This document shows, piece by piece, positions 9,516 to 14,071 of a stretch of DNA of 64,000 bases. The position numbers and the translations under genes are program-made. The stretch lies in assembly GCF_016907715.1 (NCBI RefSeq), contig NZ_JAFBCM010000001.1, positions 5,208,001 through 5,272,000 of the forward strand, written 5' to 3'. Under the pieces are notes generated by a model. The model saw nothing but the letters and a program-made list of their open reading frames with translations. It was not told where the DNA came from and did not search any database. This DNA comes from Tenggerimyces flavus. GTDB taxonomy: Bacteria > Actinomycetota > Actinomycetes > Propionibacteriales > Actinopolymorphaceae. Positions within the stretch are counted from its first letter, which is position 1. Each line of letters begins with the position of its first letter.

Positions 9516-9971
9516 ATGACTTCCGACACGCCAGCCACCGCGGTCCTCGGGCTCCTGCAGGGGATCAGCATGGTGCTCGCGGAGGACCTGGCCGAGTTCG
9601 CCGAACGCGAGGGCATGACGCCGGCGCGCGTCCACCTGCTGTGGGCGCTCGGCGAAGAGGGCGCGATGCCGTCGCATCGGTTGGCGAAACGGCTCGACGT
9701 CACGCCGCGTACGGTCACCGGCCTGGTCGACCGACTCGCCGAGAGCGGGCACGTCACCAGGTCCGCGCATCCCGACGACCGGCGCTCCACGCTGGTAACG
9801 CCCACCAAGAAGGGCGACGCCTTCACGGCCCGACTCCAGGCGATGCAGGACGAGCTCCTCCGCGACCTGTTCACCGACTTCCCCGCCGAACGCCTCGAGC
9901 CGCTCCGCATCGACCTCACCCGACTGTTCGAACGCATGCAAGAGCTCGTCGCCGCCGCCAAGCAGCACTGA
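9516..9971 (+). CDS. MarR-family transcriptional regulator
   Basis: A 151-residue winged-helix repressor. The recognition helix region is SHRLAKRLDVTPRTVTGLVDRL and the wing is GHVTRSAHPDDRRSTLVTPT, whose DxRS arginine contacts DNA in the family. Terminal helices would form the dimer. There is no ribosome-binding site, but TAGCCT lies six bases before the ATG, pointing to a leaderless mRNA. It probably represses itself and the divergent SnoaL-like gene. Confidence 0.9.
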   Translation: MTSDTPATAVLGLLQGISMVLAEDLAEFAEREGMTPARVHLLWALGEEGAMPSHRLAKRLDVTPRTVTGLVDRLAESGHVTRSAHPDDRRSTLVTPTKKGDAFTARLQAMQDELLRDLFTDFPAERLEPLRIDLTRLFERMQELVAAAKQH

Positions 9972-10012
9972 CCCCGCTCCTCCGGGATTGTCAACTGCCT
10001 CTCGACGTCCTC

Positions 10013-10037
10013 GTTTTAGTCGTCTAGACTAAAACGA
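10013..10037. promoter_or_regulatory. perfect inverted repeat upstream of the VWA operon, candidate NrtR-type operator
   Basis: Arms CGTTTTAGTC and GACTAAAACG are exact inverse complements around GTCTA. It is AT-rich in a G+C-rich setting and ends 24 bases before the first gene of an operon whose third gene is an NrtR-like regulator. TAGTC/GACTA half-sites are in keeping with palindromic sites of Nudix-related regulators. Autoregulation is inferred. Confidence 0.6.
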
Positions 10038-10061
10038 CGCCAACCAAGTGGAGGGGACACC

Positions 10062-10970
10062 ATGGGATACGGACACTGGGACGACGACACGTACACCGCG
10101 GCACGCACGTACCGCAGAGCCCGCGGCCTCGACGACTTCGGCTACACCGCCGATCTGCGCGACCTGCCCAGCTCGGCGTGGGCAGTCCACCCGTCGCTCG
10201 ACCCGAAGGACGCCTTCCGGGAGAGCCGCGACTCCGACGACCACGCCCACTCGCTGCCGATCGCGGTGCTGTTCGACGTCACCGGCTCGATGGGGCGCGT
10301 GCCGCGCGTCATGCAGAGCAAGCTCGGCAAGCTGCACGGTCTGCTGGTCGACAAGGGGTACGCCGACGACCCGCAGATCCTGTTCGGCGGGATCGGCGAC
10401 GCCGACAGCGACCGCGTGCCGCTGCAGATCGGTCAGTTCGAGTCCGACAACCGGATGGACGAGCAGCTGCGCACGATCTTCCTGGAGGGCAACGGTGGCG
10501 GGCAGAAGTCGGAGAGCTACGAGCTCGCCGCGTACTTCATGGCGCGCCACATCGCCACCGACGCGTGGGAGAAGCGGCAGAAGAAGGGCTATCTGTTCAT
10601 CATCGGCGACGAGCTGAACAAGCCGCGGCTGGCGCGGCGACACGTGCGCGCGGTGATCGGCGACGACCTTCCGCAGGACGTCTCGGTCCCGTCGATCTAC
10701 GCCACGCTCGAGGAGCGCTGGCACGTCACGTACATCCTGCCCGGTGGGTCGAGCTACTACGACCACCTGGACATCGAGGACCACTGGCAGCGGCTGCTCG
10801 GCGAGCGGTTCGTGAAGCTGCCGGACCCGGCCGCGGTGTGCGAGCTCATCGCGCTGATCGTCGGCGTCGGTGAGGACCGCATCGACGTACGTACCGGGCT
10901 CGCCGACCTCGGCGACATCGGTTCGGGCGACGAGGCCGCCGCGGTACGGAAGGCGCTGGCGACCCGATGA
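10062..10970 (+). CDS. VWA-domain protein, first gene of the PurA-like/NrtR operon
   Basis: A 302-residue soluble protein with a von Willebrand A-like domain. LPIAVLFDVTGSMG (about residue 67) carries a DxTGSM metal-ion adhesion motif, and LFIIGDELNKP is a later acidic strand end. There is no signal peptide or membrane segment, so it acts in the cytosol, probably as a metal-dependent scaffold. ATG 10062 has GGAGGGG upstream. Its stop overlaps the start of the PurA-like gene by 4 nt (ATGA), so the two are translationally coupled. The biochemical role is not known. Confidence 0.75.
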   Translation: MGYGHWDDDTYTAARTYRRARGLDDFGYTADLRDLPSSAWAVHPSLDPKDAFRESRDSDDHAHSLPIAVLFDVTGSMGRVPRVMQSKLGKLHGLLVDKGYADDPQILFGGIGDADSDRVPLQIGQFESDNRMDEQLRTIFLEGNGGGQKSESYELAAYFMARHIATDAWEKRQKKGYLFIIGDELNKPRLARRHVRAVIGDDLPQDVSVPSIYATLEERWHVTYILPGGSSYYDHLDIEDHWQRLLGERFVKLPDPAAVCELIALIVGVGEDRIDVRTGLADLGDIGSGDEAAAVRKALATR

Positions 10971-12133
10971 ACGTCATCGTCGTCGACCTCGGTTTCGGCG
11001 ACGCCGGCAAGGGCGCGACCGTCGACTGGCTGTGCGCCACCCGGCCCGTCGCCGCGGTCGTCCGGTTCAACGGTGGCGCCCAGGCCGCGCACAACGTGGT
11101 CGCCGAGGGTCGGCACCACACGTTCTCCCAGTTCGGGTCGGGCACCTTCTCGGGGGTGCCCACCCTGCTGTCCGAGCACATGTTGGTCGAGCCGATCGCG
11201 CTCGCGGCCGAGGCCCGCGCGCTCGAGGCGCTGGGCGTCGCCGATCCGTTGGCGCTTGTCTCGGTACACGAACGGGCGCTGCTCACCACCCCGATCCACG
11301 TCGCCGCCAACCGGGCGCGCGACGAGACCCGCCGGCACGGCTCGTGCGGCAAGGGGATCGGCGAGACGGCGTCGTACGCACTGACCCGCGAGGCGCCACA
11401 GGTCGCGGACTGCCGCGACCCGGGCCGGCTCCGGCGGCAGCTCGAGGAACTCGCCAGGCACTACGAGCCGCTGGTCGGACCCAGCTCGGTCGATGAGCTC
11501 GTCGCGCTCTATCGCGAGTTCGCCTCGGCGGTACGGATCGTCGACTCTCTGCCGAGCGGGCGGCTCGTCTTCGAGGGCGCGCAAGGAGTGTTGCTGGACG
11601 AGTGGCGTGGGTTTCATCCGCACACGACGTGGTCGACCGTGGAGCCACGGAACGCCCGCCGGCTGGGTGGCACGTACGTGCTCGGCGTCGTGCGGACATA
11701 CCAAACCAGGCATGGCGCGGGTCCGTTCCCGACCGAGGATCCGACGCTGCGCCATCCCGAGCCGCACAACGCCACCGGCGAGTTCCAGGGGGCGTTCCGG
11801 CTCGGGCACTTCGACCCGATCCTGCTGCGGTACGCGATCGCTTCCTGCGGCGGTGTCGACGGGCTCGCGGTCACGCATCTGGACGTCGCTCCCGGGCAGG
11901 CGGCCGCGGCGTACCTCACCGAGGAGGGGCTGGTCGACGAGTTGCCCTGCGGTCCGTGGCAGGACCTCGCCTACCAGGAGCGGCTCACCAAGCTGCTGAC
12001 CACCGCGGAGCCCGTGCTCACGTCGATGCCGGCCGATCCGGTGCCGTGGATCGAGGAGCAGCTGGGCGTCCCGGTGGTCCTCACCGCCTACGGTCCGGAC
12101 CGCGCCGACCGCAGGAGCAGGGTTGCGGCATGA
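10967..12133 (+). CDS. divergent adenylosuccinate synthetase-like enzyme
   Basis: 388 residues, shorter than housekeeping PurA (about 425-430). It keeps the general PurA layout: GDAGKG for canonical GDEGKGK with the catalytic Asp kept, a His in the GGAQAAHN segment where PurA has NAGHT, GSCGKGIGE in place of the TTGRGIGP loop, FEGAQGVLLD, and TRHGAGPFPTED. The usual QWGDEGKGK signature and the TSSN segment are altered (FGDAGKGA, TWSTVEPRN). I infer a nucleotide ligase related to PurA but acting on another substrate. It differs from phage PurZ, which loses the catalytic Asp. Start overlaps the VWA stop. Confidence 0.8.
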   Translation: MNVIVVDLGFGDAGKGATVDWLCATRPVAAVVRFNGGAQAAHNVVAEGRHHTFSQFGSGTFSGVPTLLSEHMLVEPIALAAEARALEALGVADPLALVSVHERALLTTPIHVAANRARDETRRHGSCGKGIGETASYALTREAPQVADCRDPGRLRRQLEELARHYEPLVGPSSVDELVALYREFASAVRIVDSLPSGRLVFEGAQGVLLDEWRGFHPHTTWSTVEPRNARRLGGTYVLGVVRTYQTRHGAGPFPTEDPTLRHPEPHNATGEFQGAFRLGHFDPILLRYAIASCGGVDGLAVTHLDVAPGQAAAAYLTEEGLVDELPCGPWQDLAYQERLTKLLTTAEPVLTSMPADPVPWIEEQLGVPVVLTAYGPDRADRRSRVAA

Positions 12134-12142
12134 TCGCTGATC

Positions 12143-12781
12143 GTGGAGCTCGATCAGTCCGCCGTCTCGATCGACGTCGTCGCGCTGCGATTCTGGCCTG
12201 ACGACGGGCAGGTCACGTTCGGCATCGCGCGGCGCCCGCGTGGCCCGTACGAGGGTCGGCGCGCGCTGCCCGGCGTCCTGCTCGGGCTCGGTGCGCGGCT
12301 CGAGGGCGACGCGCGGCGCGCGGTGACGGAGAAGCTCGGCGTTCCCGCTGACCACATCCTGGCGGTCGGGCAGCTCGTCACGTTCGACGAACCGAACCGG
12401 GACCCGCGCGGCCCGACCCTGTCGATCGCGATGTGGGCGGTGATCGGCCAGTACGACGGCGACACGCTCGCGCAGTGGGTGCCGTTCGACGACCACCCGA
12501 GGCTGGCGTTCGACCACGACCAGATCGTCGCCACCTCGCGGGGTCTCTTGGCGGGGAAGCTGTGGAGGGACCTGGCGTTCACGCGGGCACTCACCGGCGA
12601 GGCGTTCCCGGCGACCCGGGCGGTCTCGCTTACGGCCACGCTGACCGCCACGCGACCCGACCCCGGCAACCTGAACCGGACGCTGGCGGGCATCGAGGGC
12701 CTGGAACGTACCGACGAACGCACCCGGGTGCGCGCCACCGGACGTCCTGCGGCGGTGTGGCGGTGGGTCACTCCCCCGTAG
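12143..12781 (+). CDS. NrtR-like Nudix-winged-helix transcriptional regulator
   Basis: 212 residues: an N-terminal Nudix-like domain (about 1-130) whose catalytic box is degenerate (GALPGVLLGLGARLEGDARRAVTEKL has no REUXEE glutamates), then a C-terminal winged helix ending TGRPAAVWRW, which is typical of NrtR regulators. NrtR proteins bind ADP-ribose or related NAD metabolites through the Nudix domain and release DNA. GTG 12143 follows the PurA-like stop by nine bases. It probably controls its own operon through the palindrome at 10013-10037. Confidence 0.8.
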   Translation: MELDQSAVSIDVVALRFWPDDGQVTFGIARRPRGPYEGRRALPGVLLGLGARLEGDARRAVTEKLGVPADHILAVGQLVTFDEPNRDPRGPTLSIAMWAVIGQYDGDTLAQWVPFDDHPRLAFDHDQIVATSRGLLAGKLWRDLAFTRALTGEAFPATRAVSLTATLTATRPDPGNLNRTLAGIEGLERTDERTRVRATGRPAAVWRWVTPP

Positions 12782-12832
12782 GTCGGAGCCGATCTCACCT
12801 GCACGGATGAGTCCGCACGCGCCGAGGCGCCA

Positions 12833-12838
12833 TAGGCT
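12833..12838 (+). promoter_or_regulatory. -10 box for a probable leaderless sensor-kinase transcript
   Basis: TAGGCT ends six bases before the GTG start at 12845, and no ribosome-binding site is present. The same box and spacing occur at several other genes in the window. Confidence 0.45.
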
Positions 12839-12844
12839 CGGTTC

Positions 12845-14071
12845 GTGCAGGAGCAACGTGGAGCGCGACCGCTGTTCTGGTTCCGCGCCCACCTGCAGAA
12901 GATCGACATCGGATTCGCGGTCGTCGTCACGATCGCCAACCTGCTCGGGCTGCTGGTCCGCGACTATGGCGCCGGCGCGCCCCCGTTCCGGGACCCGGAC
13001 TTCTGGGCGGTGCTCTTCGCCCTCGCCGCCGGCGCGCCGCTGGCGGTGCGACGCCGGTACCCGGTGCTGGTCGCGCTCGCCGTCGGCGCTGGGTACTACC
13101 TCGCCGGCTTCCTCGGCTACAGCTCGCTGGGCGGCTCGTTCGCCGTTCTCGTCGCGACGTACACGCTCGGCATGCACGCGGCGCTGCTGCCTGGGCTGCT
13201 CATCGTCGCCGCGTCGACGGGCGGCTCGCTGGTCTACGCGTTCATGCACCAGGAGTCGTTCGCCGCGCAGGGCCAGGCGCTCGGGCCGGAGGTGCTCGGC
13301 GCGATCGTCATCCAGTTCATCGGGCTGTGGGCCGTCGGCCGAACGCTGCGTGCGCGCCGGATCTATCTCGACGACCTCGAGGACCGCGCGGACCGGTTGG
13401 AACGTACGGCCGCCGCGGAGGTCCGTGCCGCGCTGGCGGAGGAACGGACGCGCGTGGCGCGGGAGCTGCACGACGTCGTCGCCCACCACGTGAGCGTGAT
13501 GACCGTTCAGGCGGCGGCCGCCCGGCGCACGGTGAAGCGGGCGCCGGATCGCAGCATCGAGGCGATGCAGGCGGTCGAGGAGACCGGGCGGGAGGCGCTC
13601 GCCGAGATGCGCCGGATCGTCGGCGCTTTGCGCGAGACCGACGAGGGTACGGAGGCGCGCGAGCTGGCGCCGCAGGCTGGCGTCTCCGAGCTCGACCATC
13701 TGCTGGAGCGGGCTCGCGAGGCTGGTCTGGAGGTCGACTTCACGGTGGTCGGCTCGGAGCGTCCGTTGCCGTCGAGCGTGGACCTGGCGATCTTCCGGGT
13801 CGTCCAGGAGTCGCTCACGAACACGTTGAAGCACGCCGGGCCGACGCGCGCGGCCGTGCTGTTGCGGTACGAGCCGGACGCCGTGGTGGTCGCGGTGACG
13901 GACGACGGTGGTCGCGGCCGGCCTGCTACTCCCGGGCGGCGTCCGGGGCATGGGTTGGTCGGGATGCGGGAGCGGGTCACGTTGAACGGAGGAACGTTGG
14001 AGACACGACCGCGTTCGGTCGGCGGCTTCGAGGTCGTCGCACGGCTGCCGCTCGACCGGGTGGCATCGTGA
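12845..14071 (+). CDS. two-component sensor histidine kinase (NarL/LuxR-partner type)
   Basis: A 408-residue membrane kinase: four to six hydrophobic segments in residues 20-165, a short linker helix, then a HisKA_3 dimerisation domain with the phospho-acceptor in ELHDVVAHH (about residue 211) and an HATPase_c domain (QESLTNTLKHAG, DDGGRGRPA, GHGLVGMRERV). With no periplasmic sensor domain it probably senses within the membrane. It overlaps the response regulator by 4 nt. The signal is unknown. Confidence 0.93.
   Translation: MQEQRGARPLFWFRAHLQKIDIGFAVVVTIANLLGLLVRDYGAGAPPFRDPDFWAVLFALAAGAPLAVRRRYPVLVALAVGAGYYLAGFLGYSSLGGSFAVLVATYTLGMHAALLPGLLIVAASTGGSLVYAFMHQESFAAQGQALGPEVLGAIVIQFIGLWAVGRTLRARRIYLDDLEDRADRLERTAAAEVRAALAEERTRVARELHDVVAHHVSVMTVQAAAARRTVKRAPDRSIEAMQAVEETGREALAEMRRIVGALRETDEGTEARELAPQAGVSELDHLLERAREAGLEVDFTVVGSERPLPSSVDLAIFRVVQESLTNTLKHAGPTRAAVLLRYEPDAVVVAVTDDGGRGRPATPGRRPGHGLVGMRERVTLNGGTLETRPRSVGGFEVVARLPLDRVAS

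Follow-up and report, generated by a model that had tools for sequence, protein, structure and literature searches.

Three genes in a 64,000-nucleotide (nt) stretch of the Tenggerimyces flavus genome (GCF_016907715.1, NZ_JAFBCM010000001.1, positions 5,208,001 to 5,272,000 of the forward strand; here called the window) are shown by sequence comparison to belong to one conserved gene unit, encoding a VWA protein, a PurA-like ligase, and a Nudix–winged-helix regulator. By the same comparison, the core of the operon is the VWA–PurA-like pair, which large phages also carry, mostly without the regulator. This cassette is apparently undescribed. An enzyme of purine biosynthesis has apparently been re-specialized and coupled to a VWA protein that binds metal, and the two have spread together among actinobacteria, plasmids of proteobacteria, and large phages (nearly 190 mycobacteriophage records among them). 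Such strong conservation of the pair implies a reaction or modification of its own, and with the mycobacteriophage copies it can be tested in a common laboratory host. In window coordinates, the features are as follows.

10011-10037, no strand: predicted operator palindrome, TCGTTTTAGTC-gtcta-GACTAAAACGA (inverted repeat and conservation)
10062-10970, + strand: VWA/MIDAS protein of 302 amino acids (aa) with an N-terminal Met-Gly (P0001, phrog_2971 family; fold model and metal-site alignment)
10967-12133, + strand: PurA-like GTP-dependent ligase of 388 aa (P0002, phrog_1211 family; Pfam, alignment, and tree)
12143-12781, + strand: Nudix–winged-helix regulator of the NrtR/AraR type, 212 aa, Nudix glutamates lost (P0003; profile match and alignment)

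The VWA and PurA-like open reading frames (ORFs) overlap by 4 nt, and the regulator ORF, which starts with GTG, follows after a gap of 9 nt. A search of positions 9960 to 12900 turned up neither a sigma-70-type promoter nor a terminator. A first-pass annotation of the window had proposed that the three genes act as a unit, which this spacing and the conserved linkage described below bear out. The phage homologues, a J-domain–pseudokinase partner, the Met-Gly start of the VWA protein, and the individual residue changes that mark the ligase pockets go beyond that annotation.

Conserved linkage of the VWA and PurA-like genes

Linkage was counted in 80 bacterial loci, the top scorers among at least 443, so that Nocardia, Micromonospora, Amycolatopsis, and Actinoplanes are over-represented, and in the 80 best-scoring of 134 viral loci. 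In 79 of the 80 bacterial loci, the PurA-like gene lies on the same strand as the VWA gene and starts no more than 1.5 kb past its end; in the single exception (L077), the available stretch stops about 0.15 kb past the VWA gene. In viruses the PurA-like gene lies within the same stretch as the VWA gene in 77 of 80 loci, and within 1.5 kb in 69. A regulator gene is present in 78 bacterial stretches (49 downstream, 29 upstream) and in 4 viral stretches, where two of the four matches are weak. Conserved VWA and NrtR-type neighbors, which the first-pass annotation had suggested looking for around PurA-like homologues, are found in nearly every bacterial locus. The identity matrices of the VWA and PurA-like proteins correlate with an r of 0.95 over 157 loci, and with an r of 0.83 over 72 viral loci when only pairs below 70% VWA identity are used; none of 500 permutations was as high in either case.

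A tblastn search of 50,697 phage records found the VWA gene in 207 and the PurA-like gene in 227, counts that were not paired record by record. By the first word of the record name, these include Mycobacterium (188 VWA and 189 PurA-like), Rhizobium (10 and 10), and Vibrio (6 and 6). Four unannotated “phage” records (OR845472, OR846603, OR847116, and OR849538) with a PurA match of 27 to 30% look like bacterial contamination; such records are among the extra PurA-like matches and were excluded from use. At most one small gene separates the two in Mycobacterium phage Loanshark, Rhizobium phage RHph_TM39, and Vibrio phage phiKT1024, and they are direct neighbors on plasmids of Rhodococcus, Tsukamurella, Acetobacter, and Agrobacterium. 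Among cellular genomes, the VWA gene occurs in 28 of 296 genomes of the host class and in 2 of 57 family or order relatives, T. flavus being included in both counts. The bacterial neighbor clusters that were scanned (HxlR regulator, SDR, ABC transporter, and RelA/SpoT) look like shared synteny or bystanders.

A gene for a J-domain–kinase-like protein accompanies the pair in 58 of 80 bacterial loci (just upstream in 57) and in 46 of 80 viral loci. With rows shorter than 270 aa dropped, the HPD motif of the J domain is present in 62 of 62 bacterial rows, and the HRD catalytic aspartate in 0 of 62 bacterial and 5 of 46 viral rows. A fold search that covered only the kinase part matched PknB (Z 24.3). 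On these models the protein is a J-domain–pseudokinase, the J-domain call coming from the HPD motif, the model helices, and Pfam DnaJ matches below the cut-off. The gene is absent from the window, and a search of the T. flavus genome for an orthologue returned kinase-domain matches only, at E 4e-4 or weaker. Phages with no matched J-domain gene encode, directly or nearly directly upstream of the VWA gene, a Met-rich protein of 218 to 262 aa (L176:6267-6977, L013:6112-6822, and four other sites; two tried, with no Pfam match), and other phages have in the same place a second small, charged family of 116 to 133 aa (L170:6591-6965, L177:6461-6859, and three others).

The VWA protein and the PurA-like enzyme

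Assignment of P0001 to the VWA fold depends on a structural model, because a Pfam scan matched no family at E 1, VWA included, and no VWA relative turned up when solved structures were searched by sequence. The model (pLDDT 94.3) matches an integrin beta-I domain with a Z score of 16.0 and a root mean square deviation of 2.7 over 187 aligned positions. The metal motif reads D72-V-T-G-S-M, and the metal-site residues D72, T74, S76, and D183 are present in 66 of 66 aligned VWA rows, so the VWA protein with a DxTGSM metal motif described at first pass holds up. A Met-Gly start is found in 164 of 169 VWA rows, with Gly at position 4 in 140 and an aromatic residue at position 6 in 162; the starts were picked by a script as those nearest to the profile's first position, and 2 of the 169 rows duplicate others. 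Of the five remaining rows, one is cut, two probably have wrong start calls, and two are near-copies that begin with Met-Ser. Seven annotated phage and plasmid copies share the Met-Gly start. The VWA protein of Mycobacterium phage Nappy (L213 301-2082) carries an intein-like insert just before the last metal Asp, with a Hint match at E 1.6e-3, below Pfam's cut-off.

The PurA-like protein matches Pfam Adenylsucc_synt (E 5e-55) and is homologous to PurA over its whole length. It scores 143.9 bits on the NCBIfam PurA equivalog model, below the cut-off of 402, and 35.2 bits on the PurZ model NF038379, below the cut-off of 300. The same genome encodes a canonical PurA at 605 bits, compared with 185 bits for the window's copy, and a third short PurA. 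In a quick-search tree with long branches and SH-aLRT support only, 58 family rows (every third row plus seven named ones) were separated from 28 canonical PurA rows (2 of 29 canonical loci, L202 and L206, being omitted as misfits to the script's flank rule) by a branch with an SH-aLRT of 100; L192 and L197 entered the tree as part-length rows. PurZ of phage phiVC8 and an Arthrobacter phage protein, both on long branches, fell outside the PurA-like clade, as did the third PurA. Identity as a housekeeping PurA was rejected on the NCBIfam score and the separate clade, and identity as PurZ on the score and on the placement of the phiVC8 protein. Clustering with housekeeping PurA and unconserved linkage, the two outcomes that the first-pass annotation had set against its own proposal, were both looked for and neither appeared. 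The third PurA (L181:5308-6339, genome 2575307-2576338) has a TGRQRR loop like that of canonical PurA and Ala at the catalytic His position. Its flanking genes encode a TrmB-type regulator on one side and a periplasmic binding protein on the other; it looks unrelated and was discarded as a component of the system.

To compare active-site positions, 157 PurA-like rows were aligned against the genome's own PurA, leaving out rows outside 330 to 470 aa as well as L009 and L010, which are copies of the window and of L062. The catalytic residues of Escherichia coli PurA (Asp13, Lys16, His41, Gln224, and Thr239) align with invariant positions in all 157 members, consistent with the earlier description of a divergent enzyme that keeps its catalytic Asp. 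All 82 bacterial rows and 72 of the 75 viral ones keep the GTP-side Asp. Changes affect positions that belong to the aspartate and 5'-phosphate pockets of the E. coli enzyme (N38, V273, R143, and others, including the aspartate-binding Thr301 and Arg303). N38 is replaced by Gln in 155 of 157 rows, V273 by His in all 157, and T301 by Gln in 156, and the R143 position is Arg in only 8. The R303 position, Ala in the window's protein, is replaced in most of the family, and Arg is not among its four commonest letters in viral rows; the R305 position stays Arg in 152 members. Sequence comparison shows the protein to be a catalytically plausible, re-specialized member of the PurA superfamily. One phage homologue (L157 3403-5922) has, by eye, an intein-like insert directly after the catalytic His motif.

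The regulator, its operator, and possible roles of the cassette

A Pfam scan of P0003 matched no family, and its score on NCBIfam NF050029 was 26.2 bits, below the cut-off of 400. The regulator call comes from the family profile, which matched the solved structures of AraR (5bs6, 4e-46) and NrtR (3gz5, 4e-40) over nearly the whole length, covering Nudix and winged-helix domains with a degenerate Nudix box, and from a Pfam NrtR_WHD match in a homologue (L017). The catalytic Nudix glutamates are missing from the window's protein (ARRAVTEKLG in the alignment), as first noted for an NrtR-like protein of this architecture. Among 24 aligned regulators, all 14 of the window's kind lack these glutamates and 8 of another actinobacterial kind keep R-E-L-x-E-E.

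Upstream of the operon lies a perfect 11-nt inverted repeat (10011-10021 and 10027-10037) with a 5-nt spacer. The pattern TTTAGTC-N5-GACTAAA is found at no more than 2 mismatches at this site only in the 8.5-Mb genome; 3-mismatch fits occur at 8 other places, compared with 23 for a reversed control pattern. All 49 other loci that have the regulator downstream carry a site of this type ahead of the first gene, with at least 10 of 14 positions matching (at least 12 in 36 loci); for 8 of these loci, one or more of 100 shuffles reached the operator score. The sites mostly lie 22 to 50 bases ahead of the start, and their half-sites vary symmetrically among genera (e.g., TTGAGTC…GACTCAA). The repeat reported at first pass, and the comparison upstream of orthologous operons proposed with it, support a role as a conserved operator. 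Where the regulator gene is upstream, 0 of 29 loci reach 10 of 14 positions, and a palindrome search of these 29 gave no single clear motif. The sister regulators of these regulator-first loci (L066-L097) keep the R-E-L-x-E-E Nudix motif, and the AGTC/GACT operator is absent there; CTCA/TGAG-type half-sites recur upstream by eye.

A possible metabolic context comes from phages. An NAMPT-cluster gene is present in 8 of 80 viral loci (Pfam-confirmed in L157, L111, L148, L163, L174, L175, and L176, and by clustering only in L115), and NAMPT is held by 12 of 49 viral contigs of at least 60 kb. Of 11 NAMPT-bearing phage contigs, 5 have the gene within 5 kb of VWA, where 0.72 would be expected (P 3e-4), the limit having been chosen after the loci were seen and L175 left out as a near-copy of L174; within 10 kb, the figures are 6 of 11 and 1.34 expected (P 7e-4). 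The genes are interleaved in L115 and L111: the order in L115 is regulator, NAMPT, small ORF, VWA, PurA-like, kinase-like, and last a gene that weakly matches a nucleotidyltransferase; in L111 it is regulator, VWA, Nudix, NAMPT, PurA-like, and kinase-like; and in L174, NAMPT and a weakly Prs-like gene precede the PurA-like gene. This clustering in a minority of phages, together with an NrtR/AraR-type regulator, makes a connection to NAD or ADP-ribose our best guess rather than a result. The first-pass suggestion of an NAD or ADP-ribose link is partly supported, and a metabolite of this kind is a candidate ligand.

We therefore offer, tentatively and with slightly less than even confidence, the reading that the operon is a ligase module under repressor control, acting in nucleotide metabolism linked to NAD or ADP-ribose. 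The Nudix–winged-helix protein would bind the palindrome and release it when a metabolite of the NAD or ADP-ribose type fills the dead Nudix pocket. With GTP, the ligase would phosphorylate a hypoxanthine- or guanine-type nucleotide at its 6-oxo group and then exchange the phosphorylated oxygen for a non-aspartate amine. Presenting or receiving the substrate would fall to the VWA protein, acting through its metal site, and usually also to the J-domain–pseudokinase, which could recruit Hsp70. The most likely role would be processing of an NAD/ADP-ribose-linked purine nucleotide during stress or infection, to the benefit of cells and phages alike.

Several observations weigh against this reading. 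The aspartate site is not lost uniformly, since 13 of 82 bacterial rows keep Arg at the R303 position, and the pocket changes are aligned columns interpreted through the residue roles of the E. coli enzyme, with the R143 region aligning poorly. NAMPT is not seen in 37 of the 49 viral contigs of at least 60 kb, and no NAD gene was found among the four bacterial neighbor clusters scanned, a minority of those present. The closest solved regulator is AraR, an arabinose sensor, ahead of NrtR, so ADP-ribose cannot be assumed as the ligand. The operator also differs from the mycobacterial NrtR site, given as GTTTTCGA-N7-TCGAAAAC in PMC6800001.

A less probable explanation is anti-phage defense, in which the VWA protein and J-domain–pseudokinase would sense infection and the ligase would make a toxic or signaling nucleotide, with phage copies as decoys or stolen modules. 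Patchiness among genomes of the host class (28 carriers in 296) and copies on plasmids fit this idea, as does the resemblance of the regulator and VWA protein to parts of predicted Nudix-TF/vWA conflict systems described in PMC9503650. However, PADLOC 2023 gave no family for the window's three proteins, for which a known defense system was rejected, and none for the four VWA and three PurA-like proteins tried; ten homologues produced just generic kinase-domain similarity of J-domain proteins and one weak regulator match. The mycobacteriophage counts also better fit a gene useful to phages.

We consider it doubtful, somewhat more so than defense, that the cassette is a protein-quality or assembly module, with the VWA and J-domain proteins as chaperones and the PurA-like protein as a GTP switch rather than a ligase. 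The universal HPD motif, the loss of the HRD Asp in bacterial rows, and the invariant VWA metal residues would suit such a module, but a mere switch would not need the five ligase catalytic positions kept in 157 of 157 members. In addition, the J-domain gene is unmatched in 22 of 80 bacterial loci, and the window's genome has no clear orthologue.

Two further proposals are improbable. In the first, a PurZ-type base modification of phage or host, the ligase would make a modified purine deoxynucleotide for DNA. The PHROGs name “2-aminooxy adenylosuccinate synthetase” and similar phage annotations point this way; the PurZ score, the placement of the phiVC8 and Arthrobacter phage proteins on long branches outside the clade, and the lack of a DNA polymerase in the window's operon and its two flanking genes point the other way. 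The second, which we regard as a long shot of about the same standing, makes the enzyme a protein–nucleotide ligase that joins a purine nucleotide through C6 to the alpha-amine of the VWA N-terminal glycine, the altered amine pocket taking this glycine in place of aspartate. It was suggested by the near-universal Met-Gly start and the family-wide Gln at the T301 position, and if true, the modified VWA protein would be a carrier or signal tied to NAD/ADP-ribose state. Because the starts were script-chosen and Gly 4 and aromatic 6 are also common, the Met-Gly stretch may be an ordinary N-terminal motif, which weakens the proposal. Least probable of all is an ordinary purine-salvage operon, with a divergent functional adenylosuccinate synthetase and an unrelated regulator: whole-length PurA homology favors it, but the genome already holds a canonical PurA, and the T301 and R303 positions are changed in nearly all and most rows, respectively.

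Relation to described systems

The PurA-like ligase shares with PurA (PF00709) its whole-length homology, the catalytic Asp, Lys, His, Gln, and Thr positions, and the GTP-side Asp, and differs in forming its own clade, in its altered aspartate and 5'-phosphate pockets, and in its pairing with a VWA protein. PurZ of the dZ phages such as phiVC8 is likewise a phage-borne PurA relative, but it lies outside the clade, and P0002 scores far under the NCBIfam PurZ cut-off; no gene in the phiVC8 record is annotated as VWA, a statement about annotation rather than a profile search. With NrtR, AraR, and NadQ the regulator shares the domain pair and profile similarity, with a degenerate Nudix box in the window's protein. 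Its operator differs from that of mycobacterial NrtR, and the window's operon holds no NAD gene.

No paper describing the cassette was found in open-licence PMC literature. The nearest printed idea seen is that of the predicted ARG-centered Nudix-TF/vWA conflict systems in section 31 of PMC9503650, which likewise combine a Nudix-HTH repressor with a vWA protein. The core enzyme here is PurA-like, which does not figure in that part of their description, and phages also carry the cassette; no ADP-ribosylglycohydrolase or phosphatase appeared in a Pfam scan of the three window proteins and two flanking genes. The phage NAD reconstitution pathway NARP1 (PMC12774641 and PMC13232231, available in part) has a parallel in some phage copies, such as that of L174, which sits beside NAMPT-like and weakly Prs-like genes, but the words PurA, VWA, and adenylosuccinate occur in neither text as available. 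Pfam found none of the NARP1/NARP2 genes (Adps+Namat, Nampt+NMNAT) among the window's three proteins. The accessible text of PMC7824862, PMC7159879, and PMC13174449 covers other vWA, DnaJ, or NADase systems, without a PurA-like enzyme. The family libraries searched give the VWA–PurA-like pair no tested function, and PHROGs lists the two families apart, phrog_2971 (VWA) without a function and phrog_1211 under its synthetase name. In a genome announcement (PMC9476963), the words PurA-like and adenylosuccinate synthetase occur once each in the part of the text available.

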